In this document: positions 6,160-49,952 of the stretch, piece after piece
Numbering within the stretch: position 1 is the stretch's first letter
How the letters are laid out: every line of letters starts with the position of its first letter
Assembly (NCBI RefSeq): GCF_029360775.1
Contig: NZ_JARKMZ010000028.1
Span: forward strand, 496,001-560,000
Source of the DNA: Daejeonella sp. H1SJ63
GTDB lineage: Bacteria; Bacteroidota; Bacteroidia; Sphingobacteriales; Sphingobacteriaceae
Length of the DNA stretch: 64,000 nt
Direction of reading: 5' to 3'
Notes under the pieces: model-generated
Databases searched by the model: none
What the model saw: the letters and a program-made list of their open reading frames with translations, nothing else
What the model was told of the DNA's origin: nothing
Translations under genes and position numbers: made by a program

Positions 6160-6217
6160 AGTTAGAACTAAACCGAAATACCTAAACCTCAGATTTTAAT
6201 AATTAAATAATTAAGTT

Positions 6218-8846: not shown

Positions 8847-8969
8847 CAGTTGCCTTGTAGTTTTTGATCCGGTCAGGCTTAGGATTGAAGCTTATGCAAG
8901 TGTTTGAAACAATAGAGGGTATTAACTGTATCCAAACCACTAAATATTAAGATAATAAAATATATAATC

Positions 8970-9443
8970 ATGAATAAATTAACTCCAGACGAAAATTTTG
9001 CTTTAACCGGTTTAAGCCTTCCTCCAACGCCCCAGCCCATTGGTGTTTATATTACATTCCTCACTGTCGGACAAATGCTATATGTTTCTGGTCATGGCCC
9101 GATTCAAAATGATGGAACTTTAACCAAAGGGAAAGTAGGGGTAGACCTGGATATAGATGAGGGTAAGTTAGCTGCTCAGCAAGTGGGACTTAATATACTG
9201 GCAACCATAAAAGCAAACATGGGAACTTTTAATAAGATTAAACGGGTGGTTAAAACGCTGGGCATGGTTAACTGCACTCCTGAGTTTGAAAAGCATCCAT
9301 ATGTTATAAATGGCTGCAGCGAACTCTTTGCAAAGGTTTGGGGAACTGAAAATGGAATTGGAGTACGAAGCGCTGTGGGCTTCATCTCTTTGCCAAACAA
9401 TAAACCTGTTGAGATTGAGGTAATTTTTGAATTAGAGTCATAA
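8970..9443 (+). CDS. RidA-like (YjgF/YER057c/UK114) enamine/imine deaminase, long form
   Basis: A 157-residue protein of the RidA superfamily without a signal peptide, so cytoplasmic. Visible family features are the LYVSGHGP strand, AAQQVGLNILATIKAN helix, GVRSAVGFISLP with the conserved Arg, and the closing PVEIEVIFEL strand. RidA proteins hydrolyse reactive enamine/imine intermediates made by PLP enzymes, which fits the PLP lyase in this cassette, although that lyase appears exported. It is nearly identical in architecture to the 164-residue RidA at 47931-48425, which sits in the second amidohydrolase operon. This pairing suggests a dedicated subfamily linked to these amidohydrolases. Confidence 0.9.
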   Translation: MNKLTPDENFALTGLSLPPTPQPIGVYITFLTVGQMLYVSGHGPIQNDGTLTKGKVGVDLDIDEGKLAAQQVGLNILATIKANMGTFNKIKRVVKTLGMVNCTPEFEKHPYVINGCSELFAKVWGTENGIGVRSAVGFISLPNNKPVEIEVIFELES

Positions 9444-16003: not shown

Positions 16004-17590
16004 ATGCAAAAAATAAAATTCAGTTCAGGCATTATATTAAAATCATCAATTTGTTTTTATATGCTGCTTGCCGGTGTAATAACCATGGGTTATTCACAGG
16101 CAAAGTCATCAGGGTCCAAATCAAAACCCAACATAATCTTCCTTGCTATTGACGATCTCAACGATTGGATCAATCCCCTGGAACTGGGAGGTTTACCCGG
16201 ATTGAAAACACCCAATTTCGACAGGTTGAGGAAAATGTCAATGTCCTTTACCAATGCACATATTCCATCTCCTGCCTGTGCTCCTTCCCGTGTGGCGATA
16301 ATGACAGGGGTTAGTCCGGCAAAATCTGGCGTAACAGGCTGGAAACATGCGGATTGGAGAAAGGTTTCTGCTTTAAAAGATGTAGTAACTCTGGAACAAT
16401 TTTTTAAGGCAAAGGGATATGAAACACTTGCTGGTGGTAAAATATATCATACACTTTCGCCACCCAGAGCCATGCTGAACCAATCGGAAGCCAAAGGCTG
16501 GGATTACTATTATCCTAGTTTGAGAATTCCAATTCCCTTTCAGGTCAGGGCACCTGATTCTCTGATTTCTCCGAAAAATTTTAAAGGTATTCAGCCTGAA
16601 TATTTTACCTGGGGGCCAATCAATCAGGGCGATGATTTTATGGCTGACTACCACCTGGTGGAATGGGCAAATTATGAGTTGGGTCGAAAACATGATAAAC
16701 CCTTGTTTTTGGCTTTGGGGCTAACTAAACCTCATGATCCCTGGGAGGTTCCCCGGAAATATTTTGATATGTATCCTTTGCAATCTGTACCCGATCTGGA
16801 GATCAAAGAGCATGATCTTGAGGATGCATTTGTTCATGGCAGAAGATCTCTTCACAAATTTATCACAGATAATAATCAGTTAAAAAAGGTAGTCCAGTCG
16901 TACATGGCAACCATCTCATTCACAGATGCAATGCTGGGTAAATTTCTTGATCATTTTGAAAAAACAGCATATGCCAAAAATACAATTCTGGTAGTATGGT
17001 CAGATCATGGAATGCACATGGGGGAAAAGGAAAACTGGGAGAAATTTACCCTCTGGGAGCGTTCAACTAAAGCTCCAATGTTTATAGTGGCTCCGGGTAT
17101 CAGTAAACCGGGAAGTACAACAAACACTCCTGTCTCTATGATGGATATTTTTCCAACTCTGGTTGACCTGATCGGAGAGCAGGTGCCTGCATATTGTGAT
17201 GGTGAAAGTCTTGTTCCAATGCTTAAAAATCAAAGTTTTGCACATAAACCTGTTCTAACGTCATATGAGATGCAGGAAGAGGGGCGTAAAAATGCAGGTG
17301 ATGCCCATACAATACGAACTAAACGCTATCGTTACATCTATTATCCCTTCATAAACTTTGAAGAGCTTTATGACCATGATCTGGATAAGAATGAATGGAA
17401 TAATATCGCTTACAAACCATCAAGCAAGAGTATCATACAAGAGCATAGAAAACTGATGTCACAGCTTGTTCCGGGTTTACAATGGAATGCTGCCCCGCCT
17501 AAAGGCTATACTGTAAATGCAGATGGGAGCGTTAAAAAGAATGATTATGTAAAAATTGAAGATCTTAAAGAAACTCGCTGGGGATTATAA
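16004..17590 (+). CDS. Exported sulfatase, iduronate-2-sulfatase-like (type I, formylglycine)
   Basis: A 528-residue sulfatase with an N-terminal signal (about 1-33). The modified residue is C92 in the CAPSR motif (PACAPSRVAIMTGV), which must be oxidised to formylglycine. Metal-site residues include D50/D51 in FLAIDDLND and the later VWSDHGMHMGEKENW. The IDDLNDW start and the overall order resemble iduronate-2-sulfatase/choline-sulfatase-type enzymes that remove sulfate esters from glycans or small molecules in the periplasm. The formylglycine-generating enzyme is encoded 46 bases downstream, so activation can occur after export. The substrate is inferred only at family level. Confidence 0.92.
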   Translation: MQKIKFSSGIILKSSICFYMLLAGVITMGYSQAKSSGSKSKPNIIFLAIDDLNDWINPLELGGLPGLKTPNFDRLRKMSMSFTNAHIPSPACAPSRVAIMTGVSPAKSGVTGWKHADWRKVSALKDVVTLEQFFKAKGYETLAGGKIYHTLSPPRAMLNQSEAKGWDYYYPSLRIPIPFQVRAPDSLISPKNFKGIQPEYFTWGPINQGDDFMADYHLVEWANYELGRKHDKPLFLALGLTKPHDPWEVPRKYFDMYPLQSVPDLEIKEHDLEDAFVHGRRSLHKFITDNNQLKKVVQSYMATISFTDAMLGKFLDHFEKTAYAKNTILVVWSDHGMHMGEKENWEKFTLWERSTKAPMFIVAPGISKPGSTTNTPVSMMDIFPTLVDLIGEQVPAYCDGESLVPMLKNQSFAHKPVLTSYEMQEEGRKNAGDAHTIRTKRYRYIYYPFINFEELYDHDLDKNEWNNIAYKPSSKSIIQEHRKLMSQLVPGLQWNAAPPKGYTVNADGSVKKNDYVKIEDLKETRWGL

Positions 17591-17636: not shown

Positions 17637-18725
17637 ATGAAGCTCAATAAATATGTTCTCCCTGGTTTAGTTGTGATTTCTCTGATTAGCATTAACTCTT
17701 GCGGTCAAAAGGCAAATTCAGTTTCTGAAACTGAGAAATCTTCTAAAACTGATTACATAAGTATTGATAAGATCGCTTTTAACGGGGATACTTCCAAAGC
17801 CGGGATGGTACCTATTTCTGGCGGTTCTTTTATGATGGGAGCTGATAATGATCAGGCCGATCAGGATGAATATCCTAAACATAAGGTAATTATTGATTCA
17901 TTCTGGATGGATGAACATGAAGTAACGAATGATCAGTTTGCAAAGTTTGTAGAGAGTACAGGATATATAACCACTGCCGAGCGCAAGCCGGATTGGGAAG
18001 AACTGAAAAAGCAGTTGCCTCCTGATACACCTAAACCGGATGAATCATTATTGGTGCCTGCTTCTCTTGTATTTAGTCCCCCTGCCACGAAAGTTGAACT
18101 TAATGATTATTCCCAATGGTGGAGCTGGGTGCCGGGTGCAAACTGGAAGCACCCTGAAGGCCCTGGAAGTGATATTAAAGGAAAAGGTAACTATCCTGTA
18201 GTTCATGTAAGCTGGGACGATGCTATGGCCTATTGTAAATGGGCTGGTAAGAGATTGCCTGCTGAGGCTGAATGGGAGTATGCTTCACGCGGCGGACTGG
18301 TAAATAATATTTATTCGTGGGGCAACGAACATGTAAACAAAGGTAAAGCCAAGGCTAATACATGGGAAGGCAGCTTTCCTGATAATAATACCGCATTTGA
18401 TAAGTTTAAGGGACTTGCTCCGGTAAAGTCATTTTCGCCGAATGCATATAAACTGTATGATATTGCAGGAAATGTCTGGGAATGGTGTGCTGACTGGTAC
18501 AGGAATGATTATTATAAATCAGTAAACAGGCCAGAGGGTATAGTAAATCCTTCCGGACCAACTGATAGCTATGATCCGGATGAACCCTATACTCCGAAAA
18601 GAGTGTCGAGAGGAGGATCTTATATGTGCAATGAATCATATTGCACAGGATACAGAGTGGCAAGACGTATGAAAAGTTCTCCCGATTCAGGCATGAGTAA
18701 CCTGGGTTTCAGATGTGTCAAATGA
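17637..18725 (+). CDS. Formylglycine-generating enzyme (sulfatase maturase), exported lipoprotein
   Basis: A 362-residue SUMF1/FGE-sulfatase domain protein. A signal peptide ends in lipobox INSC (Cys about 22). The domain runs from about 55 (MVPISGGSFMMGADNDQADQDEYP) to the end (SNLGFRCVK). Both active-site cysteines of true FGE are present, C331 and C336 in GGSYMCNESYCTGYR, which matches the human SUMF1 pattern. Many SUMF1-domain lipoproteins lack these cysteines, so this one should be catalytically competent. It would use oxygen and copper to convert the CAPSR Cys of the sulfatase encoded just upstream. It probably acts in the periplasm, possibly anchored to a membrane. Confidence 0.93.
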   Translation: MKLNKYVLPGLVVISLISINSCGQKANSVSETEKSSKTDYISIDKIAFNGDTSKAGMVPISGGSFMMGADNDQADQDEYPKHKVIIDSFWMDEHEVTNDQFAKFVESTGYITTAERKPDWEELKKQLPPDTPKPDESLLVPASLVFSPPATKVELNDYSQWWSWVPGANWKHPEGPGSDIKGKGNYPVVHVSWDDAMAYCKWAGKRLPAEAEWEYASRGGLVNNIYSWGNEHVNKGKAKANTWEGSFPDNNTAFDKFKGLAPVKSFSPNAYKLYDIAGNVWEWCADWYRNDYYKSVNRPEGIVNPSGPTDSYDPDEPYTPKRVSRGGSYMCNESYCTGYRVARRMKSSPDSGMSNLGFRCVK

Positions 18726-21237: not shown

Positions 21238-24200
21238 ATGAATTCTCTAATTAAAAAGGGGTATTGTATAAGCAATACTCAGGCTGAAGTCTGTCTTTTT
21301 TCAGATTCGCTAAGTGATAGAGAGCAACATCGGATTGCATCCAGATCCGCTAAATTGTCGCTTTACAAACAATTAGGACGTATTATGAGATTGACGTTCA
21401 TTTTAATCATGATTACTTTGATGAATGTCTATTCAAATGGCTATTCACAAAAAGTAACTTTGGTAGGAAAACATGCCCCGCTTGAAGAGTTTTTTTCAAC
21501 GATCAAGCAGCAGACGGGTTATGTGTTCTTTTATGATTTAAATCTGTTAAAAACTGCAAAGCCGGTAACACTTAAAGTTGTTGATACTGAGTTGTCGCAG
21601 GTTCTTGATCTTCTTTTTGAAGACCAGCCTCTTGATTATAGCATTGAGAACAAAACCATTGTAATCAGTGAAAAAATGTCGGTTAAAGAAAGGAAGGCAT
21701 TAAAAAACGCTCCTTTTATGCTGATGGATATCAGAGGAAAAGTAGTTGATTCAAAAGGGGAGTCGCTGCCCGGAGTTAGCGTTAGGGTAAAAGGTACAGC
21801 AGTAGGTACGACTACTGATGTGCAGGGTAACTTCTCTTTGAATGCCCCAGATAACGGAACTCTTATATTTAGCTATATCGGTTACATCGGTCAGGAGGTT
21901 TCAGTAAACGGAAGGACTTCGATAAACATAACCCTTCTTGAAGATTCGCAGGTTCTGGGTGAAGTTGTGGTAACAGCACTTGGTATCGAAAGAGAATCTA
22001 AATCATTGACTTATGCAGCTCAGACAATAAAGGCTGATGCTTTAAATCAGGCTAAAGAAACCAATCTGATAAATTCACTTCAAGGTAAAGTTGCCGGTGT
22101 TACAATTACCAAAAATGCTACAGGACCAGGAAGTTCTTCAAAAGTTTTGCTTCGTGGCAGCAGGTCAATTTTTGGTAATAATCAACCCCTTTATGTGATT
22201 GATGGCGTACCAATGGATAATACCAGCCGTGAGCAGGGTACAGGTGGTACACATGGCGGCCGTGATGGTGGTGATGGTATCGGAATGCTGAACAGCGATG
22301 ATATCGAATCAATGACCATCCTTAAAGGTGCTTCTGCAGCTGCTTTGTATGGTAGCCAGGGGCAAAATGGTGCGATCATTATTACTACCAAAAGGGGTAA
22401 AGCAGGTAAAATTACGGTTGATTATACTGGAAATACTACCATCGACAGACCGTTTATTTTGCCGGATGTTCAGTCTGACTATGGACAGGGAGCCGGAGGA
22501 GTATTTAATGCAAATTCTGAAACCAGCTGGGGGCCAAAAATTACCGGACAGACCATTACTTTATGGAATGGCAAGCAAATGTCTATGCAGGGACAGCCCG
22601 ATCGCATTAAAGATTTTTATCGTGATGGGTCAAGCTTAACCAACACCATTGGAATCAGCGGTGGCGGTGAGAAAATGCAAACCTATTTCTCTTATGGAAA
22701 TAATCAGGCTAACGGTATTCTACGTAATCATACATTAGACCGCCATAATTTTGATTTTAAGATCGGCAATACTATTTCAGATAAACTTTCATTCTTTTCA
22801 AAACTAAGCTATATTGTTGAAGATGTTGATAATAAGCCATTTACAGGTGAAAGGAATGATGCAACAGGTAGTATTTATCACGCTCCTGCATCTATTCCAC
22901 TTAGTGAAATGCAGAATTTCGAATATACTGATGCTTTAGGGAATCTTAGACAGAGTTATTGGAATCCGGGCTCAATATACCTGTCAAATCCTTATTGGAA
23001 AATGAACAGACAGTTGTTCTTTGAGCAAAAGCGCCGTCTTATTGGCCTGGTATCAGCAAAATATAAGTTTAACAGCTGGTTAGATTTTCAGGTTCGCGGA
23101 AGCTTAGACAGAACAGATGAGAATACTGAAGAGAAGATGTATAATGATTCGTACGAACTTTCCGGAAACGGCAGCGTCTATAATCTTTTTGCAGGAAACA
23201 GAAGAGCCACAAACCTTGATGCATTATTGTCTTTCAGAAGAGACATTGCCAAAAATTTTAATTTGACAGGATATTTGGGAGGATCCATTCAGGAAACTAA
23301 ATATGAATCAGTGGGTACCATTGCCAACGGACTGAATAAACTTGACTTTTTCTTCATGTCTAATGCAAAAAATCCAAGAACAACCAATGTGATTGGCAGA
23401 ACCCCTCAGGTTCAATCTTTGTATGCAACAACCACATTATCCTACAAAGATTACTTATACCTTGATTTAACTGCCAGAAATGACTGGTCATCTGCACTGC
23501 CTAAAGAAAATCAATCATATTTCTATCCTTCTGTTGGTTTGACTGCTATTGTAACTGATATGATTGACCTGCCTTCATGGGTTTCATATGGTAAAGCGAG
23601 AGTAACTCTGGCAAATGCCGGTTACGGTGGTCAACAATATTTAACCGATAACTATTTTTCAGTTGGTGCCGGCGGAACAATTAATACTCCAGGCACCCGA
23701 TCATTGGGTAATTACAAACCGGAACTTACTTCTTCATTTGAAGCTGGTTTAGACTGGAGGTTCTTTACCAACCGGCTTGGTTTGGATATTACCTATTATA
23801 GAAGTGAGACAAAAAATCAGCTGATTTCCTTAGCAGTTCCTAATGCTACGCTCTTTAGTGCTCAGTATATCAATGCCGGATTGATTCGGAATAGTGGTGT
23901 TGAATTTATGCTGAATGGCACACCGGTCAGAAAAAAGAACTTTTCGTGGGATATGATGTTCAATTTTTCTAAAAACGTAAATAAAGTTGTTGAATTATCG
24001 CCAAGACTGAAAACTGCAGTTTTGGGGGATGACAGACAGGTTCTTGAAACGGTTGAAGAGGGTAAGAGCTATGGTACTATGTATATGGCAGAATGGAAAA
24101 AGGATGCGCAGGGCAGAAGAATTGTAAATGCGAATGGTGTGCCTGTAGTTACAGCCAAAACAGCTTATGCAGGAAATTATAATCCCAACTATATGCTGGG

Positions 24201-24705
24201 CGTAAGCAATTCTTTTACTTTCAAAGATCTTTCACTTAGTTTCCTGCTTGATTACAGAAATGGCGGTACAGTGGTAGCAGGTACTTTAGCTGCAATGGAT
24301 GCCAGCGGTAACTCTAAATCTTCTCTTTGGGGCAGAGATGGTGGGATTGTATTAGATGCCTATACCGATGCAGGTGTGAAAAATACAAAATCTATTACTG
24401 CTGAAACTTACTGGCAATCATTAGGTAACAGAACTCCTGTTAAAGATTTCTATGCTTTTTCTGCGACAAATCTTAGACTCAGAGAGGTTGTTTTGGGTTA
24501 TAAAATACCTAATCAGCTTGTTAGAAAAACCGGATTTATTCAGAATGCGAGATTATCTCTGGTAGGAAGAAATCTGTTCTTCCTGAAGAAATATGCTCCT
24601 TATGATCCTGAAATTGCAACGGCTATGACCAATAGAGGTGGTATGGAATATTCTTCCTTGCCAACCACCCGAAACATTGGTCTGAGTCTGAATGCATCTT
24701 TCTAA
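21238..24705 (+). CDS. SusC/RagA-type TonB-dependent transducer with STN domain
   Basis: A 1155-residue outer-membrane transporter. Residues 1-49 precede the apparent signal peptide (MRLTFILIMITLMNVYSNGYSQ). Next comes an STN signalling domain (about 72-125, LEEFFSTIKQQTGYVFFYD), a carboxypeptidase-like repeat (about 164-245), the TonB plug (SGEVVVTALGIERES-like start to TILKGASAAALYGSQGQNGA) and the barrel ending IGLSLNASF. The STN domain should contact the periplasmic part of FecR, linking substrate arrival to the ECF sigma. SusD follows after 62 bases, then the two DUF59-type proteins, so their substrate is probably what this transporter imports. Confidence 0.95.
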   Translation: MNSLIKKGYCISNTQAEVCLFSDSLSDREQHRIASRSAKLSLYKQLGRIMRLTFILIMITLMNVYSNGYSQKVTLVGKHAPLEEFFSTIKQQTGYVFFYDLNLLKTAKPVTLKVVDTELSQVLDLLFEDQPLDYSIENKTIVISEKMSVKERKALKNAPFMLMDIRGKVVDSKGESLPGVSVRVKGTAVGTTTDVQGNFSLNAPDNGTLIFSYIGYIGQEVSVNGRTSINITLLEDSQVLGEVVVTALGIERESKSLTYAAQTIKADALNQAKETNLINSLQGKVAGVTITKNATGPGSSSKVLLRGSRSIFGNNQPLYVIDGVPMDNTSREQGTGGTHGGRDGGDGIGMLNSDDIESMTILKGASAAALYGSQGQNGAIIITTKRGKAGKITVDYTGNTTIDRPFILPDVQSDYGQGAGGVFNANSETSWGPKITGQTITLWNGKQMSMQGQPDRIKDFYRDGSSLTNTIGISGGGEKMQTYFSYGNNQANGILRNHTLDRHNFDFKIGNTISDKLSFFSKLSYIVEDVDNKPFTGERNDATGSIYHAPASIPLSEMQNFEYTDALGNLRQSYWNPGSIYLSNPYWKMNRQLFFEQKRRLIGLVSAKYKFNSWLDFQVRGSLDRTDENTEEKMYNDSYELSGNGSVYNLFAGNRRATNLDALLSFRRDIAKNFNLTGYLGGSIQETKYESVGTIANGLNKLDFFFMSNAKNPRTTNVIGRTPQVQSLYATTTLSYKDYLYLDLTARNDWSSALPKENQSYFYPSVGLTAIVTDMIDLPSWVSYGKARVTLANAGYGGQQYLTDNYFSVGAGGTINTPGTRSLGNYKPELTSSFEAGLDWRFFTNRLGLDITYYRSETKNQLISLAVPNATLFSAQYINAGLIRNSGVEFMLNGTPVRKKNFSWDMMFNFSKNVNKVVELSPRLKTAVLGDDRQVLETVEEGKSYGTMYMAEWKKDAQGRRIVNANGVPVVTAKTAYAGNYNPNYMLGVSNSFTFKDLSLSFLLDYRNGGTVVAGTLAAMDASGNSKSSLWGRDGGIVLDAYTDAGVKNTKSITAETYWQSLGNRTPVKDFYAFSATNLRLREVVLGYKIPNQLVRKTGFIQNARLSLVGRNLFFLKKYAPYDPEIATAMTNRGGMEYSSLPTTRNIGLSLNASF

Positions 24706-24767
24706 ATGCAAAGATAGTTGCAATATCAAAACGTGTAAATATTAGTATTAATATTAAACTAAATACA

Positions 24768-26330
24768 ATGAAATCTCAAAAATCATTATATAGAAAATGG
24801 GCCAGCAGGGTGATGCTTTTAATAGCTCCCATGCTTATACTGACTGCCTGTACCAAAAATTTCGAGGAAATAAATACCAATCCCTCCGGATTAAAGGAGC
24901 TGACTGCGCCAGACTTGCGCAGTCTATTCCCGGGAGCTTTGGTTACCGGATTAGGAGCTAGTTATAACGAAACTACTATGCTTTTATTTGCCGGGGTATA
25001 TTCACAGCATTTTGCAGGTACCAATCCTGCTCAGGAATCGCATCGTTATGTAATTGTACAAAGATGGATGGATATCTGGCCAGGTACCTATGTGAGTACA
25101 ATGCCTAAACTTGTTAATATCATTGAAGCTACCAAGGGTGGAAAAGAACCCTCAATGAATGCAGTGGCCAGAATGTGGAAAGTATATGCTTTTATGCGTT
25201 TGACAGACTATTTTGGTCCGATTCCTTATTCTAAAATTGGAAAAGATACTACAGTTGTGAATTATGACGATCAAAAGAGTATCTATTTTGATTTCTTTAA
25301 AGAACTCGACGAAGCCACAAATGATCTGAAAAACAATTTGGCAAAACCTTCATTTGCAACGAAAGATCTGATCTATAACGGAGATAATGCCAAATGGCTT
25401 AAGTTCGGAAATACCCTTCGTTTACGTTTAGCATTGCGCATTTCTGATGTTGAGCCGGCTAAAGCAAAATTAGAAGCTGAAAAGGCATTTGCAGGAGGTG
25501 TTATGACTGAAGTTGCTGACGGAGCTTTTTTCAAAACTTCGGCTGATTTTCCACATGGACTGAACAATTTCATGGGTAGGAACGGTTCAAGGATGAGTAC
25601 TTCAATGGAGAGCTTACTGGTGGGATACAATGATCCGAGATTACCAAAATTATGGAGCCCTGCTTTGAGTGACGGTAAATTTCACGGTGTAAGAAATGGT
25701 ATGTCTGTGGCTCAGCAGAATATGCCTCAAAATAGTATTAACAGTAACTCAGCTGTTGGTCCTAAATATCAGCCTGTTAATATGAATACTACCCCCCAGG
25801 CAGTAATGTACGCTTCTGAAGCTTATTTCCTTAGGGCAGAGGGTGCTTTAAATGGATGGAATATGGGAGGAACTGCTCAATCTTTATATGAAAAGGGCAT
25901 TGAGACCTCTATGCGCGAACATGAAGTTACAGATGCAGCTGCTATTGCTAATTACATTAACGGAACCAGCTTGCCTATTGCACCTGATAATGCATTTCCA
26001 ACACCAGCCTTAACAGATATTCCGGTAAAATTTGCATCTGATCCTGAAAAGCAGCGTGAACAGATCGGTACCCAGAAATGGATTGCACTTTTCCCTGAAT
26101 CTCATGAAGCATGGGCTAGTATCAGAAGATCTGGTTATCCTAAGTTCTACCCTTTGTTGAACTCTCAAAACCCGGATATTGCTCCTGATATGATGATCAG
26201 GAGAATATCATTTCTTGACAGGGAGATTATCGCAAACGGTGTTGCTGTAAAGGCAGCAGTTCCATTATTGGGAGGTGGACCGGATAATGTGGCTACACGT
26301 TTGTGGTGGGATAAATCCAAATCAAAATAA
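24768..26330 (+). CDS. SusD-like (SusD-like_2 type) surface lipoprotein
   Basis: A 520-residue lipoprotein; signal with lipobox LTAC (Cys about 28), then NFEEINTNPSG. Family landmarks include LTDYFGPIPYSKIG, WLKFGNTLRLRLALRISDVEPAKAK, YFLRAEGALNGWNMGGTAQ and WASIRRSGYPKFYP, ending RLWWDKSKSK. It should act as the surface substrate-binding partner of the SusC at 21238. Hairpins lie at about 26333-26346 and 26382-26407 in the following 210-base gap, which may reduce read-through into the downstream enzymes. It is more divergent from the cassette A/B SusDs than those are from each other. Confidence 0.95.
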   Translation: MKSQKSLYRKWASRVMLLIAPMLILTACTKNFEEINTNPSGLKELTAPDLRSLFPGALVTGLGASYNETTMLLFAGVYSQHFAGTNPAQESHRYVIVQRWMDIWPGTYVSTMPKLVNIIEATKGGKEPSMNAVARMWKVYAFMRLTDYFGPIPYSKIGKDTTVVNYDDQKSIYFDFFKELDEATNDLKNNLAKPSFATKDLIYNGDNAKWLKFGNTLRLRLALRISDVEPAKAKLEAEKAFAGGVMTEVADGAFFKTSADFPHGLNNFMGRNGSRMSTSMESLLVGYNDPRLPKLWSPALSDGKFHGVRNGMSVAQQNMPQNSINSNSAVGPKYQPVNMNTTPQAVMYASEAYFLRAEGALNGWNMGGTAQSLYEKGIETSMREHEVTDAAAIANYINGTSLPIAPDNAFPTPALTDIPVKFASDPEKQREQIGTQKWIALFPESHEAWASIRRSGYPKFYPLLNSQNPDIAPDMMIRRISFLDREIIANGVAVKAAVPLLGGGPDNVATRLWWDKSKSK

Positions 26331-26540: not shown

Positions 26541-28574
26541 ATGTTAAACCAAAATGAAACTCTTCCTGCAACCTTGAATTCTGACTATGCCGGATCTAAA
26601 AGAAATCCTGCGTCCTTAAGCCTCTCAGATAATCAAAACGAAGCCTACAGCGCTTCTTTAAATGTTCAACTGAAACGAAGAAAATTTTTGGGTATGGGTT
26701 TGTTAGGTGTGGCAGGAATGGCTTTACCCCTGACTTCTAAAAGTGCAGAAAATAGCTCTGTTGAGGATTTTGTAAATCATATCATTACTACAGAAACGGA
26801 TCTTTTCCGGAAACACTCTGATAGTTTTGAAGAAAAAATAAAAATGATTCAGCAGGCCTGGGCTGAAAAAGATTACAGATTAGTCAGGTCGTTAACAGAA
26901 TCAATCAGAAATACCGGAATTCAGGCTCAGAATGAATATGAAGATCCGGGGAAACCACTCCTGAATGGCAATCAGTTCGGAACTGTTGCAACACTTCCTG
27001 CGCTCTGGAGAGCATGGGCCAAAGGCTGGAAATATTATAAACTTGTTGGAGTTGAAGAAAGTGAAGGAGTCCCAAGGCAATCAGAACCTATGGAAGTTCT
27101 ATTGGGATTTCGATCAGATCAGGTTACCTCACTTGCCCGTGAAATTCGTGTTGCTGAGGTTAATAATGGTGTGCTCAGAGAGGTTACCTCTCAGGTGTAT
27201 GGAGTTCTGAGAAGAGGATCTGAAAGATTATGCAGGGTGATGTTTCTTGCTGATAATAAAGGGGGTGAGAAGCGTCAGTATCTTGTGTTTTATGGTAATC
27301 CCGATGCTGAACTGCCTGAGTATATCACAGACCTGGAAGTTCGAGGCGAAGGCTATGATCTTGAAATTGAAAATCAGCATTTTATTGCTTACCTGTCTAA
27401 ACAAACCGGTCAGTTGGAAAGAATGCTGATCAAAAGAGAGCACGGCGTTGAATTATATGCAGGTGGGCCGGGACACGGAGAAACTCCATGCATTGATTGG
27501 GCTCATGATTATGTGGCAGAAGATAATTTCATGAAGGTCAGGATTCAATATTGGGGAGAATGCCGCGATTATGAAATTATAAAAGGCCCGATCTGCACAA
27601 TCGTCAGGCGGTGGGGATTTCCGCATTCGGCCCTGCATCCCGTCTATAATCCTTCACGTTTAAATATTGATATTGAATATCGTTTTTATTCCGGACTTCC
27701 TTATTTCCATAAATTCGGTAAGATGAAAGCAATAAAGCAATTTGTTGCAACAGCACTCCGTGATGATGAGTGGGTATTTACCGGGCAGCCATTTACTGGT
27801 AGTTTATGGATGGGGGCCGATGAAAAATTGAAGTTCGGTGAAATTGATGAAGCGAATAAAAATAATGTCGAAGCATTCGGATACTATAACAAAGACTCAA
27901 AGGATTCTTTTGTGGGTCTTTATCTAAAGCACTATGCTGAGTTAATTCCAAATTTTCTTGATTCAGGTCATTCTTTGCTTTATTATAACTGGCACGGTAC
28001 TACATGGTCACGTTATCCGCTTGTACGAAACCAGATTGTACCTGTTGGGGCGGTGTTGCATCAGAAAAATGCCTATGTAACTATTGCATTTACAGAGAAG
28101 GATGGTCCAGGGAAAATTGAGGCTCTCAGAAAAGAGCTATTGAGTCCTATGCTAAGTATGGAGGCCTCTTTGAATTCTTCTTCGGCCAAGGAATCTCATG
28201 GTGTTTTAGCGAAGAAAGGAGAGGCAGGAGATAGTACGATTCCGAAAGCAGTTCTATGGGAAGCTTTGAAAAATTGTATCGATCAGCAGATGTATATTTC
28301 GAATGTGAATCTTGTTGAACTAGGATACATTTATAATCTTTCTGTTCAGGATGGAGTGGTTAAAGTGCTGATGACTATGCCACATAAAGGACGTCCACTT
28401 TCAAGCTTCTTTATCTGGGGATCAAGTGTCGTACATCGTACCGTTTCGAAAACAATTAACGGTGCATTATCAGAAATTCCGGGTGTCCGAAAGGTAGTGG
28501 TAGAACAAACCTGGTATCCTCAGTGGAACTCTAATTTGATGACAGATGAATGCCGTAAGAAGCTGGGTATCTGA
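26541..28574 (+). CDS. Tat-exported protein with C-terminal DUF59/MIP18-like domain (copy 1)
   Basis: A 677-residue protein of unknown function. A twin-arginine signal begins at R46-R47 (KRRKFLGMGLLGVAGMAL) after an unusual 45-residue leader. The body (about 90-540) looks like a beta-rich enzyme domain rich in conserved aromatic and charged motifs (QYLVFYGNPDAELP, GGPGHGETP, DWAHDYV, IVRRWGFPHS, EYRFYSGLPYFHKFG, WHGTTWSRYPL). The C-terminal about 115 residues resemble DUF59/MIP18 (LVELGYIYNLSVQDG, IPGVRKVVVEQTWYPQW). The family's reactive Cys is missing: the loop reads MPHKGRP. The Tat signal implies a folded or cofactor-bearing periplasmic enzyme, perhaps acting on imported polymer. It is a tandem paralogue of the next gene. 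Confidence 0.75.
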   Translation: MLNQNETLPATLNSDYAGSKRNPASLSLSDNQNEAYSASLNVQLKRRKFLGMGLLGVAGMALPLTSKSAENSSVEDFVNHIITTETDLFRKHSDSFEEKIKMIQQAWAEKDYRLVRSLTESIRNTGIQAQNEYEDPGKPLLNGNQFGTVATLPALWRAWAKGWKYYKLVGVEESEGVPRQSEPMEVLLGFRSDQVTSLAREIRVAEVNNGVLREVTSQVYGVLRRGSERLCRVMFLADNKGGEKRQYLVFYGNPDAELPEYITDLEVRGEGYDLEIENQHFIAYLSKQTGQLERMLIKREHGVELYAGGPGHGETPCIDWAHDYVAEDNFMKVRIQYWGECRDYEIIKGPICTIVRRWGFPHSALHPVYNPSRLNIDIEYRFYSGLPYFHKFGKMKAIKQFVATALRDDEWVFTGQPFTGSLWMGADEKLKFGEIDEANKNNVEAFGYYNKDSKDSFVGLYLKHYAELIPNFLDSGHSLLYYNWHGTTWSRYPLVRNQIVPVGAVLHQKNAYVTIAFTEKDGPGKIEALRKELLSPMLSMEASLNSSSAKESHGVLAKKGEAGDSTIPKAVLWEALKNCIDQQMYISNVNLVELGYIYNLSVQDGVVKVLMTMPHKGRPLSSFFIWGSSVVHRTVSKTINGALSEIPGVRKVVVEQTWYPQWNSNLMTDECRKKLGI

Positions 28575-28629
28575 AAATTGATTCTTATTTTCAACAAACC
28601 TGACCTTTAAAAAACACTTATCTTAAAAA

Positions 28630-30672
28630 ATGAAAAAGATTAATCTAAACCAAACTGAGCTTAATGCAACTGATGAATCTTCAGATTTGGCTGCATTTGA
28701 TGTTAAAAGCATAAAAAGTCTGCTTCATGAAGAGAGTAATTCTCTTGTATCAGATCCTATGAGAAGAAGGAAATTTCTTGGAATGGGTCTTCTTGGATTT
28801 GCAGGACTCACGCTTCCATCTACTTCGCGTTCCGAAGGACAAAATTCGATTGAAAGTTTCGTCAATAATGTCATTGTTTCTCCTGCCGATAAAACAACCA
28901 GTCAGACCGATAGTGTAGAGGAGAAAATTCAATTACTTCAGGAGGCATTGGCTAAGAAAGATTACAGAATAGCCAGAGCAATAACTAATTCTATAAGAAT
29001 ATCTGAAATTCAGGCACAGGCTGAAGAAGAGAATTTTGGAACTCCCCATGTTGGAGCAAATCAATTTGGGACGGTAGATTCACTTCCTGCTGTTTGGAAA
29101 ACATGGGCAAATGGATGGAAGTATTATAAGGTGATCAGTATTGAAGAGAAAATTGGTATTCAGCGTAAAGCAGAACCTGTTGAAGTTCTACTAGGCTTTC
29201 AGTCATCTCAGACAGCCTCCCTGGCACGTGAAATACGCGTTGCTGAGATCAAAGACGGTATACTTACCGAGGTAATCTCACAGGTATTTTCTGAGGTTCG
29301 CAGAGGAACTGAAAAAATATGCAAACTATTATTTCTGGCTGATAACCAGGGTAAGGAAAAACGACAGTATCTTGTTTTTTACGGGAACCCGGATGCGGAA
29401 TTGCCTAACTATCAATCAGACTTGAAAGTTACTGGTGAGGGATATGGTCTTGATATCGAGAATGAGTATTTCACTGCTATTTTATCAAAGCAAACCGGTC
29501 AGCTGGCCCGTATGATTTTAAAGCGTGAGCATGGACTTGAGATCTATTCGGGTGGACAGGGACATGGCGAACCGGCCGGAATAGATTGGGCTCATGATTA
29601 TGTGTCTGACGAAGGTATCCAGAAAATGAGAATTTCACTCTGGGATGAATGTCCTGATTTTGAGGTTGTAAAAGGGCCAATCTGCACTATCATTCGTCGC
29701 TGGGGTTTCCCTTATTCTCCGGTTCATCCATTGTTTTCGCCGGCAAGAATGATTATGGACATTGAATATCGTTTTTATGCAGGCTTGCCATATTTCCACA
29801 AATTTGGTCATATGACTGCAGTTAAACAGTTCTCTCCTGCAGCTTTAAGGGATGATGAATGGGTAATCACCGGTCAGTCGTTTACTGATATGATCTGGAT
29901 GGGACCCGATGAAAAACTGAAGGCAGGACCGGTTCCGGCAGATTTAAGTGAAAAGCTCTGGGGAATTGGATTTTTTAATAAAGATACTAAAGATTCATTC
30001 TTTGGATTTTTTCTTGAACATCATGCCGAAGGACTTGGAGAGGAGTTAGTGCATAATGGAAGCCCTAATTTGCATTATCAGTGGCACGGTCAGATCTGGA
30101 GCCGATATCCGGTTCCAAAGACGATAAAAACGATTCCCAAGGGAGCTGTTCTTCATCAGAAAAATGCGTATGTGACTATTCCATTTACCCTGAAAGATGA
30201 TACTGCAAGGCTGGAAAACCTCCGTCAGGAACTTTTAAATCCCTTATCCCGGTTGGGTTCCGAATTGGCTAAAGGGATTATTGCCAAAGAGAGCCCCCGC
30301 CGTCTGGCCCGGGTTTCTGAAGCTAAGGATAGCCCGATTTCTAAAGCATTGTTATGGGAAGCATTGGGATTGGTAAAAGATCCGCAATTGTACAAAGCTG
30401 ATATCAGCATTGTTGACTTGGGATTAGTTTACGATGTTGCTGTGCGGGGTAGTGTTGTTAAAGTTACGCTTGCAATGCCGCACAGAGGTCGTCCGCTGGG
30501 AGCATATTTTACACATAGCTCAAATGTTGTTCATGCTACGGTTTCAAAGACAATGATGGAAGCATTGTATGCTGTTCCGGGAGTTAAAAAAGTTATTATG
30601 GAGCAAACCTGGTATCCACTATGGAATGTTAATTTCCTGACCGATACCGGCCGTAAAAAGCTTGGACTTTAA
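28630..30672 (+). CDS. Tat-exported protein with C-terminal DUF59/MIP18-like domain (copy 2)
   Basis: A 680-residue paralogue of the preceding gene, 55 bases downstream. The twin-arginine motif is at residues 45-47 (MRRRKFLGMGLLGFAGL), again after a leader of about 44 residues; M44 is an alternative start, but the equal leader length in both copies supports the long form. The body repeats the same landmarks (FYGNPDAELP, GGQGHGEPAG, DWAHDYV, IIRRWGFPYS, EYRFYAGLPYFHKFGH, WHGQIWSRYP). The DUF59-like end (VDLGLVYDVAVRG, VPGVKKVIMEQTWYPLW) again lacks the cysteine (MPHRGRP). It is followed by a terminator-like hairpin at 30696. Function is unknown; a lyase or hydrolase acting on a sugar-acid polymer is conceivable. 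Confidence 0.75.
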   Translation: MKKINLNQTELNATDESSDLAAFDVKSIKSLLHEESNSLVSDPMRRRKFLGMGLLGFAGLTLPSTSRSEGQNSIESFVNNVIVSPADKTTSQTDSVEEKIQLLQEALAKKDYRIARAITNSIRISEIQAQAEEENFGTPHVGANQFGTVDSLPAVWKTWANGWKYYKVISIEEKIGIQRKAEPVEVLLGFQSSQTASLAREIRVAEIKDGILTEVISQVFSEVRRGTEKICKLLFLADNQGKEKRQYLVFYGNPDAELPNYQSDLKVTGEGYGLDIENEYFTAILSKQTGQLARMILKREHGLEIYSGGQGHGEPAGIDWAHDYVSDEGIQKMRISLWDECPDFEVVKGPICTIIRRWGFPYSPVHPLFSPARMIMDIEYRFYAGLPYFHKFGHMTAVKQFSPAALRDDEWVITGQSFTDMIWMGPDEKLKAGPVPADLSEKLWGIGFFNKDTKDSFFGFFLEHHAEGLGEELVHNGSPNLHYQWHGQIWSRYPVPKTIKTIPKGAVLHQKNAYVTIPFTLKDDTARLENLRQELLNPLSRLGSELAKGIIAKESPRRLARVSEAKDSPISKALLWEALGLVKDPQLYKADISIVDLGLVYDVAVRGSVVKVTLAMPHRGRPLGAYFTHSSNVVHATVSKTMMEALYAVPGVKKVIMEQTWYPLWNVNFLTDTGRKKLGL

Positions 30673-30796: not shown

Positions 30797-32104
30797 ATGC
30801 CTGGCCGAAAGATAAAAAATTACCGCTGGATCATTTTAACCTTACTGGTTTCGGCTACAACACTCAATTATCTCGACAGACAAATACTCGGGCTCTTAAA
30901 ACCTACTCTCGAACTTGAATTTTCGTGGTCTGAGACTGATTTTGCTTTTCTCGTAATGGCATTTACAGGAGCTTATGCTCTGGGATTGATCTCATGGGGT
31001 TGGTTTATCGATCGCATCGGGACAAAGCCAGGATACATTATTTCTGTGGCATCATGGAGTATTATGGGTATGATGCATGCTGTGGCACGTTCAGTTCCCG
31101 GGTTCGGACTGGCAAGGATTGGATTGGGGTTGACAGAATCGGGTAATGTACCGGCCGGAATGAAAACTATTGCAGAATGGTTTCCACGTAAAGAAAGGGC
31201 ATTGGCAACGGGTTTATTTAATGCCGGAACAAGTGTCGGAATTATTCTGGCGCTAATCATTGTACCATGGATTTTGAGCTATTATGGATGGCATGAAGTT
31301 TTTATCATCACAGGTTCATTAGGTTTTTTATGGCTCCTGATCTGGATTTATGTCTACGATGTTCCGTCTAAGCATAAACGATTAAGTGAAGAGGAATATA
31401 ATTATATTCATGAAGGGCAGAAATTGGACTATGACACAGAGGAGGAAGTGGCTAAAATAAAATGGATCAAGCTATTTACTTATCCTCAGACATGGGCATT
31501 TATTACCGGTAAGATTTTACTCGACCCGATTTACTGGTTCTTTATGTTCTGGCTGCCATCCTATTTTGCATCTACATTTAAGCTAAATATGTCAAATTTA
31601 AGTCCTGAGCTAATGATAATATATACGATGACCATTGCCGGAAGTGTTGGAGGGGGCTATTTTTCTTCATGGCTAATTCAAAGGGGTTGGCCAACATTAA
31701 AAGCAAGAAAAACAGCACTTTTAATTTTTGCAATACTGGAATTAACTGTACTTTCAGCTCAGTATGCTACAAATGCCTGGATGGTGGTTGGAATATTAAG
31801 CTTTACCCTTGCCATTCATCAGGCGTGGAGCACTAATATTTTTACCCTGGTAGTTGATTTATTCCCTAAACAGGCAGTAAGTTCTGTTACCGGAATCGGA
31901 GCTATGTCGGGTGCGGTAGGAGGTATGTTGTTCCCTTTATTTGTTGGATATATACTGGATAGTTATAAAGCAGCAGGAAATTTGATTGGCGGATATAATT
32001 TATTGTTTATAATTTGTGGTCTTACATACCTTACGGCATGGTTGATCATACATTTACTGACAAGAAGGTCAAATACTGTACCTCTCGAAGAATTAGCTGA
32101 TTAA
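30797..32104 (+). CDS. MFS transporter, hexuronate/sugar-acid (ACS, ExuT-like) family
   Basis: A 435-residue inner-membrane carrier with twelve predicted helices. The start NYRWIILTLLVSATTLNYLDRQILGLL and the loop GWFIDRIGTKPGY, then ARIGLGLTESGNVPAGMKTIAEWFPRKERA (read as adjacent short pieces), are typical of the anion:cation symporter branch that carries hexuronates, glucarate and other sugar acids. This suggests that the product of the DUF59-type enzymes is an acidic sugar or small organic anion. It heads a group with SDR, RidA and creatininase-type genes. The specific anion cannot be assigned. Confidence 0.9.
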   Translation: MPGRKIKNYRWIILTLLVSATTLNYLDRQILGLLKPTLELEFSWSETDFAFLVMAFTGAYALGLISWGWFIDRIGTKPGYIISVASWSIMGMMHAVARSVPGFGLARIGLGLTESGNVPAGMKTIAEWFPRKERALATGLFNAGTSVGIILALIIVPWILSYYGWHEVFIITGSLGFLWLLIWIYVYDVPSKHKRLSEEEYNYIHEGQKLDYDTEEEVAKIKWIKLFTYPQTWAFITGKILLDPIYWFFMFWLPSYFASTFKLNMSNLSPELMIIYTMTIAGSVGGGYFSSWLIQRGWPTLKARKTALLIFAILELTVLSAQYATNAWMVVGILSFTLAIHQAWSTNIFTLVVDLFPKQAVSSVTGIGAMSGAVGGMLFPLFVGYILDSYKAAGNLIGGYNLLFIICGLTYLTAWLIIHLLTRRSNTVPLEELAD

Positions 32105-32251: not shown

Positions 32252-32998
32252 ATGAAAATTGAATTTAAAGAACAAGTGGGGATTATTACCGGTGCCGCTT
32301 CAGGGCTGGGACTTGCAATAGCAGTTAAATTATCAGCTAAAGGTGTTAAACTTGCCCTGCTCGATAAAGATAAAACAGGGCTGGAAAAGGCAAAGACTTT
32401 AATAGCTGGCGAATGTGAAATATTTCCATTGGATATCACCAGTGAGCATGAAGTAGCTTCCGCAATTGAGCAGGTTGGTAAGCAATATGGCCGCATTGAT
32501 ATTTTGGTGAATTGTGCAGGTGTAGCTGGCAAAACCAATATTTTGAGTCATGAAGTCGATGCTGATAATATGAAATTTGTATTTGATGTGAATTTTATGG
32601 GTTCCTTCTATACTTCCAAATATGTACTTCCTGTAATGTTAAAAAATAATTATGGCCGTATACTTCACATAGCTTCAATATCCGGAAAAGAAGGGAATGC
32701 CGGAATGCTGGCATATTCAGCCTCTAAGTCTGCTGTAATTGGAATGACTAAAGTTCAGGGTAAGGAGTATGCTGAAAAAGGAATTACAGTGAATGCATTG
32801 GCTCCGGCAGTTATCAGAACAGCTATGGTTGAAGCACTTCCGGTAGAACAGGTTAAATACATGACTGACAAGATACCTATGAAACGATGCGGAACCCTCG
32901 AAGAGGCTGCTGATACTGCAGCCTTTATTGTAAGTCCGGAAGCAAGTTTTTCAACAGCATTTACATTCGACCTGTCAGGCGGAAGGGCTACTTATTAA
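32252..32998 (+). CDS. SDR-family NAD(P)-dependent oxidoreductase
   Basis: A 248-residue classical short-chain dehydrogenase. The nucleotide-binding loop is TGAASGLG (about 12-19), the NAG-type motif is NCAG, and the catalytic Ser-Tyr-Lys set is visible as IASISG and YSASK. After the active site comes VNALAPAVIRTAM and the C-terminal FDLSGGRATY. It probably oxidises or reduces a hydroxyl/keto acid in the cytoplasm after uptake by the MFS carrier upstream. RidA begins 21 bases downstream, indicating one transcript. Cofactor preference is uncertain, though the Asp in LALLDKDK at the end of strand 2 favours NAD. Confidence 0.92.
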   Translation: MKIEFKEQVGIITGAASGLGLAIAVKLSAKGVKLALLDKDKTGLEKAKTLIAGECEIFPLDITSEHEVASAIEQVGKQYGRIDILVNCAGVAGKTNILSHEVDADNMKFVFDVNFMGSFYTSKYVLPVMLKNNYGRILHIASISGKEGNAGMLAYSASKSAVIGMTKVQGKEYAEKGITVNALAPAVIRTAMVEALPVEQVKYMTDKIPMKRCGTLEEAADTAAFIVSPEASFSTAFTFDLSGGRATY

Positions 32999-33019: not shown

Positions 33020-33415
33020 ATGGCAAGGAGACAAATTTTTCATCCTGAACAAAAAGACAAGGATTTTGTAATTGGTGCATATTCAGATGCAATTGAGGTT
33101 GACGGTACAGTTTATTTAAGTGGTCAGGGACCAGTTGATTTTGCAACCGGAACTTTTGTAAGGGGAACTATTGAAGAAGAAACACTTCAAACACTGCACA
33201 ATATAAAATGCCTTATCGAAGCCGCAGGCGGTACATTGGATGATATCGTTAAATGTTCTGTTCACCTTGCAGATATTAAAGACTGGGACAGATATAATAA
33301 AGTTTATTCAGAGTTTTTTACCGGAGTTCGTCCTGCCCGAATTACAGTTCAATCGGGATTGGGGTTTGGTATCAAAATTGAACTTGATGCAATTGCAGTA
33401 CTTCAGAAAAAATAA
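33020..33415 (+). CDS. RidA-family enamine/imine deaminase (short form)
   Basis: A 131-residue cytoplasmic RidA protein of standard length. Key features are VYLSGQGPVD, the helix QTLHNIKCLIEAAGG, DIVKCSVHLADIKDW, and RPARITVQSGLG with the Arg that binds the substrate carboxylate, followed by KIELDAIAVL carrying the acidic residue. It hydrolyses imines or enamines arising from amino-acid or amino-sugar metabolism. It differs from the longer 157/164-residue RidA pair elsewhere in the window. It lies between the SDR and the creatininase gene, with 21 and 72 bases of spacing. Confidence 0.93.
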   Translation: MARRQIFHPEQKDKDFVIGAYSDAIEVDGTVYLSGQGPVDFATGTFVRGTIEEETLQTLHNIKCLIEAAGGTLDDIVKCSVHLADIKDWDRYNKVYSEFFTGVRPARITVQSGLGFGIKIELDAIAVLQKK

Positions 33416-33487: not shown

Positions 33488-34264
33488 ATGTTCTGGGATC
33501 AACTTTCATCAAAGCAAATTCAGGCACTGGATAAGAATATCCCGGTCTTGCTTAATATCGCAGCAGTTGAGCAGCATGGAGCACATTTACCTGTGGCTAC
33601 CGATCGTATGATCGGGGAGTATTTTTCAGGTTTGCTGAATAAAGAACTGGAAGATAAGGTTTTGATCCTTCCAATTGCTGCCATAGGTTGTTCTGACCAT
33701 CATATGGGATTTAGTGGTACTTTGAGTTTGAGTCACAATACTTTTGCTGCACTTGTAAAAGATATTATTCAGTCTGTTTTGCACCATGGATTTTACAATA
33801 TTATTTTATTGAATAGTCATGGCGGGAATCAGGGTATAATGCAGGTAATAGTAGAGCAGCTTGGTTTTGCAAATCCTAATGCACATATTGTTGGAGCAAC
33901 CTGGTGGACAATTGCTAAAGAAGAACTTTTGAAAATTACAGAAACCGGCTTTGGTGGTACCGGACATGCCTGTGAGTTTGAAACCTCTCTGATGAAAGTA
34001 ATCGCACCTCAATTGATTCACGATGACCTGATACAAATGGGAGCAAATGTTTCTGCTTTTCCGCAATCAGATGGGGATATGCTGTTTGGAAGTAAAGTTT
34101 CATTTTATCGTACCATGAAAGAAATGACTCCAAATGGCGTTTTCGGGAACCCTGTTCAGTCTTCTGCAGAAAAAGGTATCCTAATAGGTAAGGCAGTGAT
34201 AAAGGCCTTAAAACAGCTCGTATTGGATATGTATCATCTGAGCGACAGACAGTATATTAAATAG
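33488..34264 (+). CDS. Creatininase-family amidohydrolase
   Basis: A 258-residue member of the creatininase fold. Metal ligands are visible as E and H in VEQHGAHLP, D in ATDRM, H in NSHGGN and E in HACEFETS. The family includes creatinine amidohydrolase, MftE and 3-dehydro-scyllo-inosose hydrolase, all opening or cutting amide or C-C bonds with two divalent metals. Creatinine is an unlikely substrate in this sugar-acid context; ring opening or hydrolysis of a keto-sugar or lactam is more plausible. No signal peptide, so it acts in the cytoplasm. It is the last gene of the plus-strand block. Confidence 0.9.
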   Translation: MFWDQLSSKQIQALDKNIPVLLNIAAVEQHGAHLPVATDRMIGEYFSGLLNKELEDKVLILPIAAIGCSDHHMGFSGTLSLSHNTFAALVKDIIQSVLHHGFYNIILLNSHGGNQGIMQVIVEQLGFANPNAHIVGATWWTIAKEELLKITETGFGGTGHACEFETSLMKVIAPQLIHDDLIQMGANVSAFPQSDGDMLFGSKVSFYRTMKEMTPNGVFGNPVQSSAEKGILIGKAVIKALKQLVLDMYHLSDRQYIK

Positions 34265-35684: not shown

Positions 35685-38600
35685 TTATTTTTTAGAACTC
35701 AGGAAATTTAAATTGATAATGCTTTCATTCAGATTTTTGATCAGATCAAGATAATTACTTTGTATGATCACTGCCTGATTGTTAAGTAATACCCAGTCGA
35801 GATAATTGATCTCGCCGTTGATGAATTGTTTGTTTGCAGTTTCACGGATGAGTTTCGATTCGGTTAATGAGTTTTTTTCAAAATAATCAGCTGATTGTGA
35901 ATAGTTTTCAAACTGCGACATAGATGCGGTATATTGAGTCTCAAGATTTAAAACCTGATTCTGATAGGCATTTTCTGCAATTGACTCTGATAGTTTTGAT
36001 GCATTAACCCTTGCCTTTTGTGCACCTGTAAACAGTGGTATTCCAATCCCAAAACTGGCAGCACCAAATCTTTTGTCTGACGAATAGTAAATGTTATCGG
36101 CACCGGTTCCTTTAATACTCGTATTAAAATAGCCTAAACTTAAATCTGGAAGCATTTTTGATTTCTCTAAACGGGTATTTGCTGCAGCAATTTCTTTTTG
36201 TTGAACTGAAATCCTCGACAGGGGATGCTCTGTAATCACTGCAGATTTATCGGGCTGCATTAATTCCATCTTCTTCTTCTCTGAATAGGGCTCTATATCA
36301 CTTGTAGTATTAAGAAGAAGTCTGAATTGCAATTTTGCCAGTTTGATTTCTTCCTGTAAAGCTTTTAATTGTAAATAGATCGCACTTTTTTGGGTTTGAG
36401 CGGTTGCTTTTTCCAGGGTGTTGCTTTCTCCCGCTTTAAACCGGATCAGAGCCTTATTCAGGAATTCTGTATAAATACTGTCAGTTTCAGTTAACAGCTT
36501 TTCCTTTTCCCTTAAGATTAGTATGGCGCTGAATATCTGAGAAACAGCTTTTTTAATTTCTGCTTCTTTTAGTGAAACACTTAAAACAGCCGACTTATAT
36601 TCCTCATTCAGAAGTTTTTTCTGATTTGAGTAAACGGTTGGAAAGCTGAATGCCTGACTTATACCGAACCGGCTGTCGTTGTAGTTACTGTTGATCTGAC
36701 CATATTCTGTACTTAAACTTGCATGCGGAATGTTTGCCGATGATCGTATAAGTGCCTGCTGATAATCTGATCTGAGTTTTTCATTTTTTATACTAAGATT
36801 ATTCTTTAAAGCTGTGTCGATAGCAGCCTCAAGACTGATGCCATCCTGTGCATGAGCATTTACAGAACCCGCAAAAAACAGGGCCAGGATGATTGATGTT
36901 GTCTTTACAGGGATCTTTATTTTAACTGTGCTTTCAAAAATTATGTACAGAATAGGTAAAACAAACAAAGTCAGTAAAGTAGCAATCATAAGCCCTCCGA
37001 TCACAACAGTTGCCAGTGGTTTCTGAACTTCTGCACCTGCACCATTACTCAGCGCCATAGGAAGGAAGCCTAATGATGCCACAAAAGCAGTCATCATTAC
37101 CGGTCTTAAACGAACTTTTGTACCCATAATCACAATTCTGTTCAGATCTTTCATTCCTGATTCTTTTAAGCGGTTGAATTCTGCGATCAATACGATGCCG
37201 TTCAGTACGGCAACACCAAACAAAGCAATAAAACCAACTCCGGCACTGATACTGAAAGGCATTCCTCTGAGTGCCAGCAAATAAATGCCTCCAATTGCCG
37301 ACAATGGAATAGCAGTATAGATCAGCAAACCATGTTTTATTGAATTAAATGCAAAGAACAGCAGAATAAATATCAGTAGTAATGAAACCGGAACCGCGAT
37401 CATCAGTCTTTGTTTAGCAGCATTCAGATTCTCGAATGCACCTCCATAGGTGATATAATAACCTGTCGGTAATTTAACTTTTTGTTCAACCTTTGTCTGT
37501 AATTCATTAACAATACTCTGAACATCACGTCCCCTGACGTTGAAACCAACTACAATCCTGCGTTTGGCATCTTCACGCTGAATCTGATTTGGTCCATTCT
37601 TAATATCCACGCCGGCCAGTTGGTATAGTGGTACTGAGGTACCCTGAGGAGTAGGTATCAGAAGGTTTTTAACATCCTCAAGATCTTTTCTTTGATCCAT
37701 ATCCAGTCTTACTGCCAGGTCAAAACGCTTTTCCCCCTCAAATACCAGTCCTGAACTCTGGCCTGCAAATGCTGTATTGATTACTCTGTTTATATCAGCT
37801 ATGTTTAAATTGTATTGAGCAATAGCAGCCCGGTTATAGCTAATTACAATCTGAGGCATACCTGTTACAGGTTCAACAAACAAATCCTGACTTCCCTGCA
37901 CTCCATTAACTATATGGCCAAGCTTATCTGCATAAAGTGCAAGCGTATCAAGATCTTCTCCGAAGATTTTTAAAACCACATCCTGCCTTGCACCTGTCAT
38001 CAGTTCATTAAAACGCATTTGAACCGGGAACTGAAAACCAGTGGTAATGCCGGGTACAGCCTCTAAAGCCTTACCCATTTTTTCTGCCAGTTCATTAAAG
38101 TTTGATGCAGAAGTCCATTCTTCTTTATCCTTGAGTATTACCATCAGGTCACTTGCTTCCATCGGCATAGGGTCTGTTGGGACCTCACCGCTTCCGATTT
38201 TGGTAACAACTTTCTCTACTTCCGGGAATTTAGTTTTCAGGATATGTGCAGCTTTTGTGGTGCTTTCGATGGTTGTGTTAAGATTACTTCCGGTTAATAC
38301 CCGCGTATCAATTGCAAAGTCGCCCTCTTCCAATGCCGGAATAAATTCACCACCCATATTGGAAAGGATAATAATAGCTGCTATAAACATACTTACCACT
38401 GTGCCAATTACTAGTTTTGGGAAACGTAATATTTTTGTCAGGGCATGCTGATAAAAATATTCAACCTTATACATGATCCTGTCTGAAAAATTAGGTTCAT
38501 GATGAATCTTTTTACTCAGAAACCAGGAACTCATCATTGGAATATAGGTGAGAGATAATACAAAAGCACCCAGTAAAGCGAAGGCAACCGTTTGAGCCAT

Positions 38601-47895: not shown

Positions 47896-47930
47896 TGGGT
47901 TAAGATTTAGTTTAGCGTATCAGTTTTTGA

Positions 47931-48425: not shown

Positions 48426-48492
48426 TCTATAAATTTAATTGTTGTATTTAAGGATAGAATATATTTTAATTAATTTCTCTTTATAGTTCTGA

Positions 48493-49926: not shown

Positions 49927-49952
49927 ATAATATTATAGTTTATTAGTCTCTT

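Follow-up and report, generated by a model that had tools for sequence, protein, structure and literature searches.

Tandem twin-arginine-exported proteins of Daejeonella join a predicted beta-supersandwich body to a DUF59 domain devoid of its signature cysteine

In a 64,000-nucleotide stretch of the genome of Daejeonella sp. H1SJ63, referred to here as the window, two adjacent genes were found to encode proteins of 677 and 680 residues, each combining a twin-arginine translocation (Tat) signal, a body of about 415 residues, and a C-terminal DUF59 domain in which the signature cysteine is replaced. The window belongs to a 3.65 Mb genome that was placed with Daejeonella (Sphingobacteriaceae) via its nearest relatives. 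The two genes are tandem paralogues in a Daejeonella family of Tat-exported, folded proteins and lie in a SusCD-type glycan-uptake locus. The features of the two proteins are as follows, and all are on the + strand.

26541..28574, +, protein 1, 677 aa: Tat signal, body and Cys-less DUF59 (open reading frame, Pfam, alignment)
26673..26747, +, twin-arginine signal of protein 1, KRRKFLGMGLLG (RRxFLG invariant in 22/22; TatC in genome)
26946..28181, +, body of protein 1, assigned a beta-supersandwich fold through its homology with the modelled protein 2
28209..28571, +, DUF59 domain of protein 1 (PF01883)
28377..28397, +, MPHKGRP loop in place of the Cys loop, protein 1 (open reading frame, alignment)
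28630..30672, +, protein 2, 680 aa, paralogue of protein 1 (open reading frame, Pfam, alignment)
28759..28839, +, twin-arginine signal of protein 2, MRRRKFLGMGLLG (RRxFLG invariant in 22/22; TatC in genome)
29035..30279, +, body of protein 2, modelled beta-supersandwich (predicted local distance difference test, pLDDT, 79.8; predicted template modelling score, pTM, 0.82)
30307..30669, +, DUF59 domain of protein 2 (PF01883)
30475..30495, +, MPHRGRP loop in place of the Cys loop, protein 2 (open reading frame, alignment)

The two proteins are 54-56% identical and share one layout, namely an N-terminal extension of about 45 residues, the twin-arginine signal (RRKFLGMGLLG...), a short helical stretch at about residues 90-135, the body at 136-550, and the C-terminal domain at 560-680. 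The first-pass annotation had described tandem exported proteins of about 680 residues bearing a Tat signal, and the reading frames at these positions bear this out. In the family alignment, which comprises 22 sequences down to 48% identity to the query, the RRxFLG motif followed by a hydrophobic stretch is present in 22/22 relatives, and TatC is encoded in the host genome (E 1e-62); the motif, the hydrophobic stretch and the Tat machinery that mark a Tat protein were all found.

DUF59 is known as a domain of cytoplasmic iron-sulfur (Fe-S) maturation. Both window proteins matched PF01883 (FeS_assembly_P) at 25.0 and 24.0 bits against a gathering score of 23.5, all 22 family members matched it with E values of at most 0.01, and a search of the PDB sequences hit TM0487 (1uwd), a DUF59 protein of solved structure, at E 1e-6 to 4e-9. 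The fold landmarks LGxxY and the final P-x-W are retained in the family. The DUF59 signature has been defined as DPE-X26-31-T-X2/3-C with a reactive Cys (PMC9045647). Of its five residues, the Asp is kept in 22/22 members, the Pro in 11/22, the Glu in 1/22, and the Thr and Cys in none (0/22 each); the Cys is replaced by Arg and the Thr by Pro throughout (22/22), and the Glu by Gln in 21/22, so that the family lacks the signature. By comparison, D, P, E and C are intact in 41/41 ordinary DUF59 sequences from Bacteroidota, of which 33 have T and 8 have S where the signature has Thr. Among the 22 members no cysteine is conserved anywhere within the domain, and the MPH(R/K)GRP loop is invariant. 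The earlier proposals of a Cys-less C-terminal DUF59 domain and of an MPH(K/R)GRP loop in both copies were thus upheld and extended to the whole family.

In SufT the Cys is required for binding partners (PMC9045647), and it is present in every SufT homologue examined (PMC4982691); ordinary Fe-S work is therefore unlikely in a Cys-less domain. Judged from its sequence, the family DUF59 is a relative by descent and not a functional member of the SufT/CIA2 type, and the predicted Tat signal likewise argues against a role in cytoplasmic Fe-S maturation. Since two further DUF59 genes (frames of 361 and 111 aa) occur elsewhere in the host genome, the DUF59 domains of the Tat proteins are extras. Four DUF59 matches on plasmids (Rhizobium, Natribaculum, Ensifer, Paraburkholderia) were read through and set aside, as all were ordinary Cys-bearing proteins. 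In the literature library searched, no paper was found that links DUF59 to twin-arginine export.

The full architecture was present in 10 of the 20 Daejeonella genomes sampled, at up to six copies per genome, some of them cut at contig ends; such recurrence places the pattern far beyond chance. It was found in no other genus among about 200 genomes of the family or 395 of the phylum, and on no plasmid; outside Bacteroidota the coverage consisted of plasmids and one genome-contig scan, so that rarity beyond the phylum is unproven. The body was not found in viral contigs, and the tblastn search of plasmids with the body returned only a meaningless Nonomuraea match (E 9). The sole body relative without the full architecture was a 396-aa lipoprotein from another Bacteroidota family (genome G353, L091:8751-9941; E 3.7e-5), which has neither a Tat signal nor DUF59 and indicates that body and DUF59 are separable. 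Upstream of this lipoprotein lie a gene weakly like dihydrodipicolinate synthase, a 339-aa gene without a Pfam match, and an Nramp transporter. In the family tree there are two main clades, each holding one window protein (support 100/100 and 92/94), so the split predates the species sampled. In sum, the folds themselves are known; what is new is their combination, so far found in this genus only, and the rewriting of the DUF59 site.

The body had been regarded as unplaceable on first inspection. At the sequence level this holds, since no Pfam, NCBIfam or PDB sequence match was obtained for its approximately 415 residues, and the 22 bodies searched against Pfam at E 10 gave nothing except weak RuvA_N; its fold, however, could be placed by prediction. 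Across the 680 residues of the whole protein, 96-132 are short helices and 160-545 are mainly beta. In a structure search with the full-length model the body accounted for most of the matches, and the body was modelled alone with AlphaFold from the 22 sequences, at a mean pLDDT of 79.8 versus 67.7 for the whole protein. With the body model, the best Foldseek matches reached E of about 3e-7. This model supports a beta fold of two parts, the last of them a supersandwich of the galactose-mutarotase type as in polysaccharide lyase family 26 (PL26) and glycoside hydrolase family 38 (GH38); LacZ domain 5 was also among the matches (Foldseek, VIA-align). A profile built from the body and one distant relative weakly matched the YidC periplasmic domain (E 0.0016 and 0.008, two genomes of one genus), and as that domain (P1) is a supersandwich, this agrees with the body model. 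Two other profile matches, a ceramidase-like protein (G870) and a Tol-type amidohydrolase (G466), were judged to be chance. The motifs initially quoted from the body are real and conserved, and its loops harbor clusters of many invariant residues that are acidic, aromatic or His (H312, E314, D319, D323, Y324, H366, D408, D409 and E410).

The genes around the pair, also on the + strand, are listed below.

16004..17590, +, secreted type I sulfatase with a CAPSR motif, conserved upstream in G104, G109 and G092
17637..18725, +, formylglycine-generating-enzyme (FGE)-like lipoprotein (SUMF1/GldK type), also in L009
19184..21126, +, FecI-type sigma factor and FecR-type anti-sigma factor (sequence, synteny)
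21238..26330, +, SusC and SusD pair (sequence, synteny)
30797..32104, +, major facilitator superfamily (MFS) carrier; best NCBIfam match the D-galactonate transporter family TIGR00893, below cut-off
32252..32998, +, short-chain dehydrogenase/reductase (SDR) oxidoreductase (family matches)
33020..33415, +, RidA/YjgF-family protein
33488..34264, +, creatininase-family amidohydrolase (family matches)

A common gene order was observed in the window and in the genomes G104, G109 and G092, namely sulfatase, FGE-like lipoprotein, FecI, FecR, SusC, SusD, two to five Tat proteins, MFS carrier, SDR, and creatininase-family enzyme. The context of SusC/D and a sugar-acid carrier noted at the outset is accordingly borne out by SusCD and an organic-acid-type MFS carrier in the locus.

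Taking these results together, we favor, without great confidence, the reading that these proteins process an acidic or sulfated glycan outside the cytoplasm and that DUF59 was re-used in them for non-Fe-S binding or pairing. We infer catalysis, the substrate and the role of the basic loop along the following lines. The body would act on oligosaccharides imported by SusCD, either at the cell surface or within the periplasm, possibly as a lyase, hydrolase or epimerase of the acidic or sulfated glycan, with the invariant loop residues (HGE..IDW..DY, H366, RDDEW) lining the putative site. DUF59, presumably no longer engaged in Fe-S maturation, would be retained as a binding module whose pocket, turned basic by His618, Arg/Lys619 and Arg621, might suit a carboxylate or sulfate group or subunit pairing. 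The MFS carrier may then import the freed sugar acid into the cell, where it would pass to the SDR and creatininase-family enzymes. The upstream sulfatase extends the idea of an acidic glycan and does not prove it. A bolder version, in which an exported glycan enzyme took over the Fe-S domain and converted its Cys pocket into an Arg/His pocket gripping an acidic or sulfated sugar, with the supersandwich as the catalytic body of a new carbohydrate-enzyme family, appears unlikely to us.

Several observations weigh against a glycan-processing role. No catalytic residue of the body was mapped onto a known active site, and pLDDT falls below 50 at model residues 174-206 (protein 309-341), which hold the invariant HGE..IDW..DY, the likely site loop. 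The matched parts of PL26, GH38, LacZ and YidC are mostly accessory, non-catalytic modules, and for that reason the body could be non-catalytic; a common fold by itself demonstrates no function. Profile-profile comparison of the body with four PL26 proteins gave a probability of 0.2, that is, no match, with both alignments thin. No recognised glycoside hydrolase or polysaccharide lyase gene was found in the locus, and the sulfatase is absent next to the G119 copies. Moreover, the pyrroloquinoline quinone (PQQ) dehydrogenases, class-V aminotransferase, M19 dipeptidase and RidA near divergent copies point to alcohols or amines. The initial proposal of a carbohydrate-active enzyme of a new type is retained only as regards the predicted fold, which is of a carbohydrate-enzyme type.

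The serious rival, somewhat unlikely in our estimation, is a non-catalytic exported glycan-binding or scaffold protein, in which supersandwich and DUF59 would both hold oligosaccharides or partner enzymes (e.g., SusC/SusD or the sulfatase) in the periplasm. The accessory nature of the top fold matches, including YidC P1, and the want of any recognised catalytic site in the body speak for it, and the two to six diverging copies per genome fit a set of binding proteins with differing ligands. Nevertheless, glycan binding is already provided by SusD, and the many acidic, His and aromatic loop residues that stay invariant despite 48% identity between members are enzyme-like.

We consider it improbable that the substrate is something other than a sugar (an alcohol, an amine, an aromatic or a peptide-like compound), in which case the sugar-type fold would be incidental and the locus would group with the surrounding amidohydrolase, RidA, pyridoxal phosphate (PLP)-enzyme and PQQ-dehydrogenase loci. 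The RidA and creatininase-family genes of the window locus, and the PQQ alcohol dehydrogenase, class-V aminotransferase and M19 dipeptidase adjoining divergent copies, would be accommodated by such a substrate, whereas the main locus carries a sulfatase, SusCD and an organic-acid MFS carrier; PaaD is the best NCBIfam match of the C-terminal domain, but falls far under its cut-off (45-49 of 180 bits). In one G119 locus a PQQ dehydrogenase replaces the MFS carrier. A 1095-aa FG-GAP/UnbV_ASPIC protein (L070:9629-12916), together with two PQQ dehydrogenases with cytochrome c, adjoins a divergent Tat-DUF59 protein.

Finally, it is most improbable that DUF59 still serves cofactor assembly outside the cytoplasm, acting in the periplasm as a chaperone for Fe-S clusters or metals and fused to its client, for although the domain belongs to PF01883 and the Tat pathway carries folded, often cofactor-holding proteins, the signature is lost except for Asp584 and, in part, Pro585, the domain has no conserved cysteine of the kind SufT needs for partner binding, and no Fe-S partner lies near the locus.

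Elsewhere in the window, three further loci (638-9443, 46228-51257 and 59003-62917) contain SusD or SusCD, SelA/class-V PLP enzymes, amidohydrolases, a RidA-family protein and symporters (SDF, lactate permease), and by their appearance serve to take up and degrade acylated amino acids or related amines. On the - strand, 35685-40037 holds a 1450-residue frame, seemingly a CusA-type RND efflux pump fused to a TolC-like outer-membrane factor as judged from its sequence; L001 and L002 have a conserved frame of equal length.

A DUF59 family that carries an export signal, is fused to a fold of the sugar-enzyme type and lacks the Cys suggests that this fold can take on another role, and provides a natural experiment on the function of the DUF59 pocket outside Fe-S maturation. 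A catalytic body would represent a further carbohydrate-enzyme family, in a genus whose feeding on glycans has received little study.

Compared with SufT, CIA2/MIP18 and PaaD, the C-terminal 120 residues of the window proteins match PF01883 and keep LGxxY and the terminal P-x-W, whereas the signature Cys, Thr and Glu are replaced, the loop is followed by some 11 or more additional residues, and an export signal and the 415-residue body are added. Among carbohydrate enzymes, the PL26 exo-rhamnogalacturonan lyase PcRGLX (5xqg) aligns over its residues 22-509 with the body (Z 16.8, 340 residues, 4.7 A; VIA-align), so that the body model shows the N-terminal beta fold of PL26; identity is 8-9%, with no match at the sequence level. 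PL26 continues past residue 509 with a helical barrel, in place of which the window proteins have DUF59, and the full PL26 architecture is absent; PF19501, which is the first domain of PcRGLX, gave no match in the host genome. The C-terminal part of GH38 alpha-mannosidases (2wyi, 6b9p, 6lz1) resembles the beta fold over the whole body (Z 15-17.5, approximately 283-331 residues) at 6-12% identity, but the window proteins lack the catalytic alpha/beta barrel with its metal site, having no GH38 Pfam match and no barrel region within their 680 residues. The supersandwich of the GH174 endo-1,3-fucanases (8jd7, 9k1g), which act on a sulfated glycan, matches the full-length model (Z 16.2, 260 residues, 4.0 A) at 8-10% identity; the suspected catalytic acids of GH174 in Fun174A are D119, E120 and E218 (PMC11943901). 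PL26-like proteins of Sphingobacteriaceae (L083-L086) also bear a twin-arginine signal (SRRDFVK...), which indicates that glycan enzymes exported by the Tat pathway are not out of the ordinary in this family.

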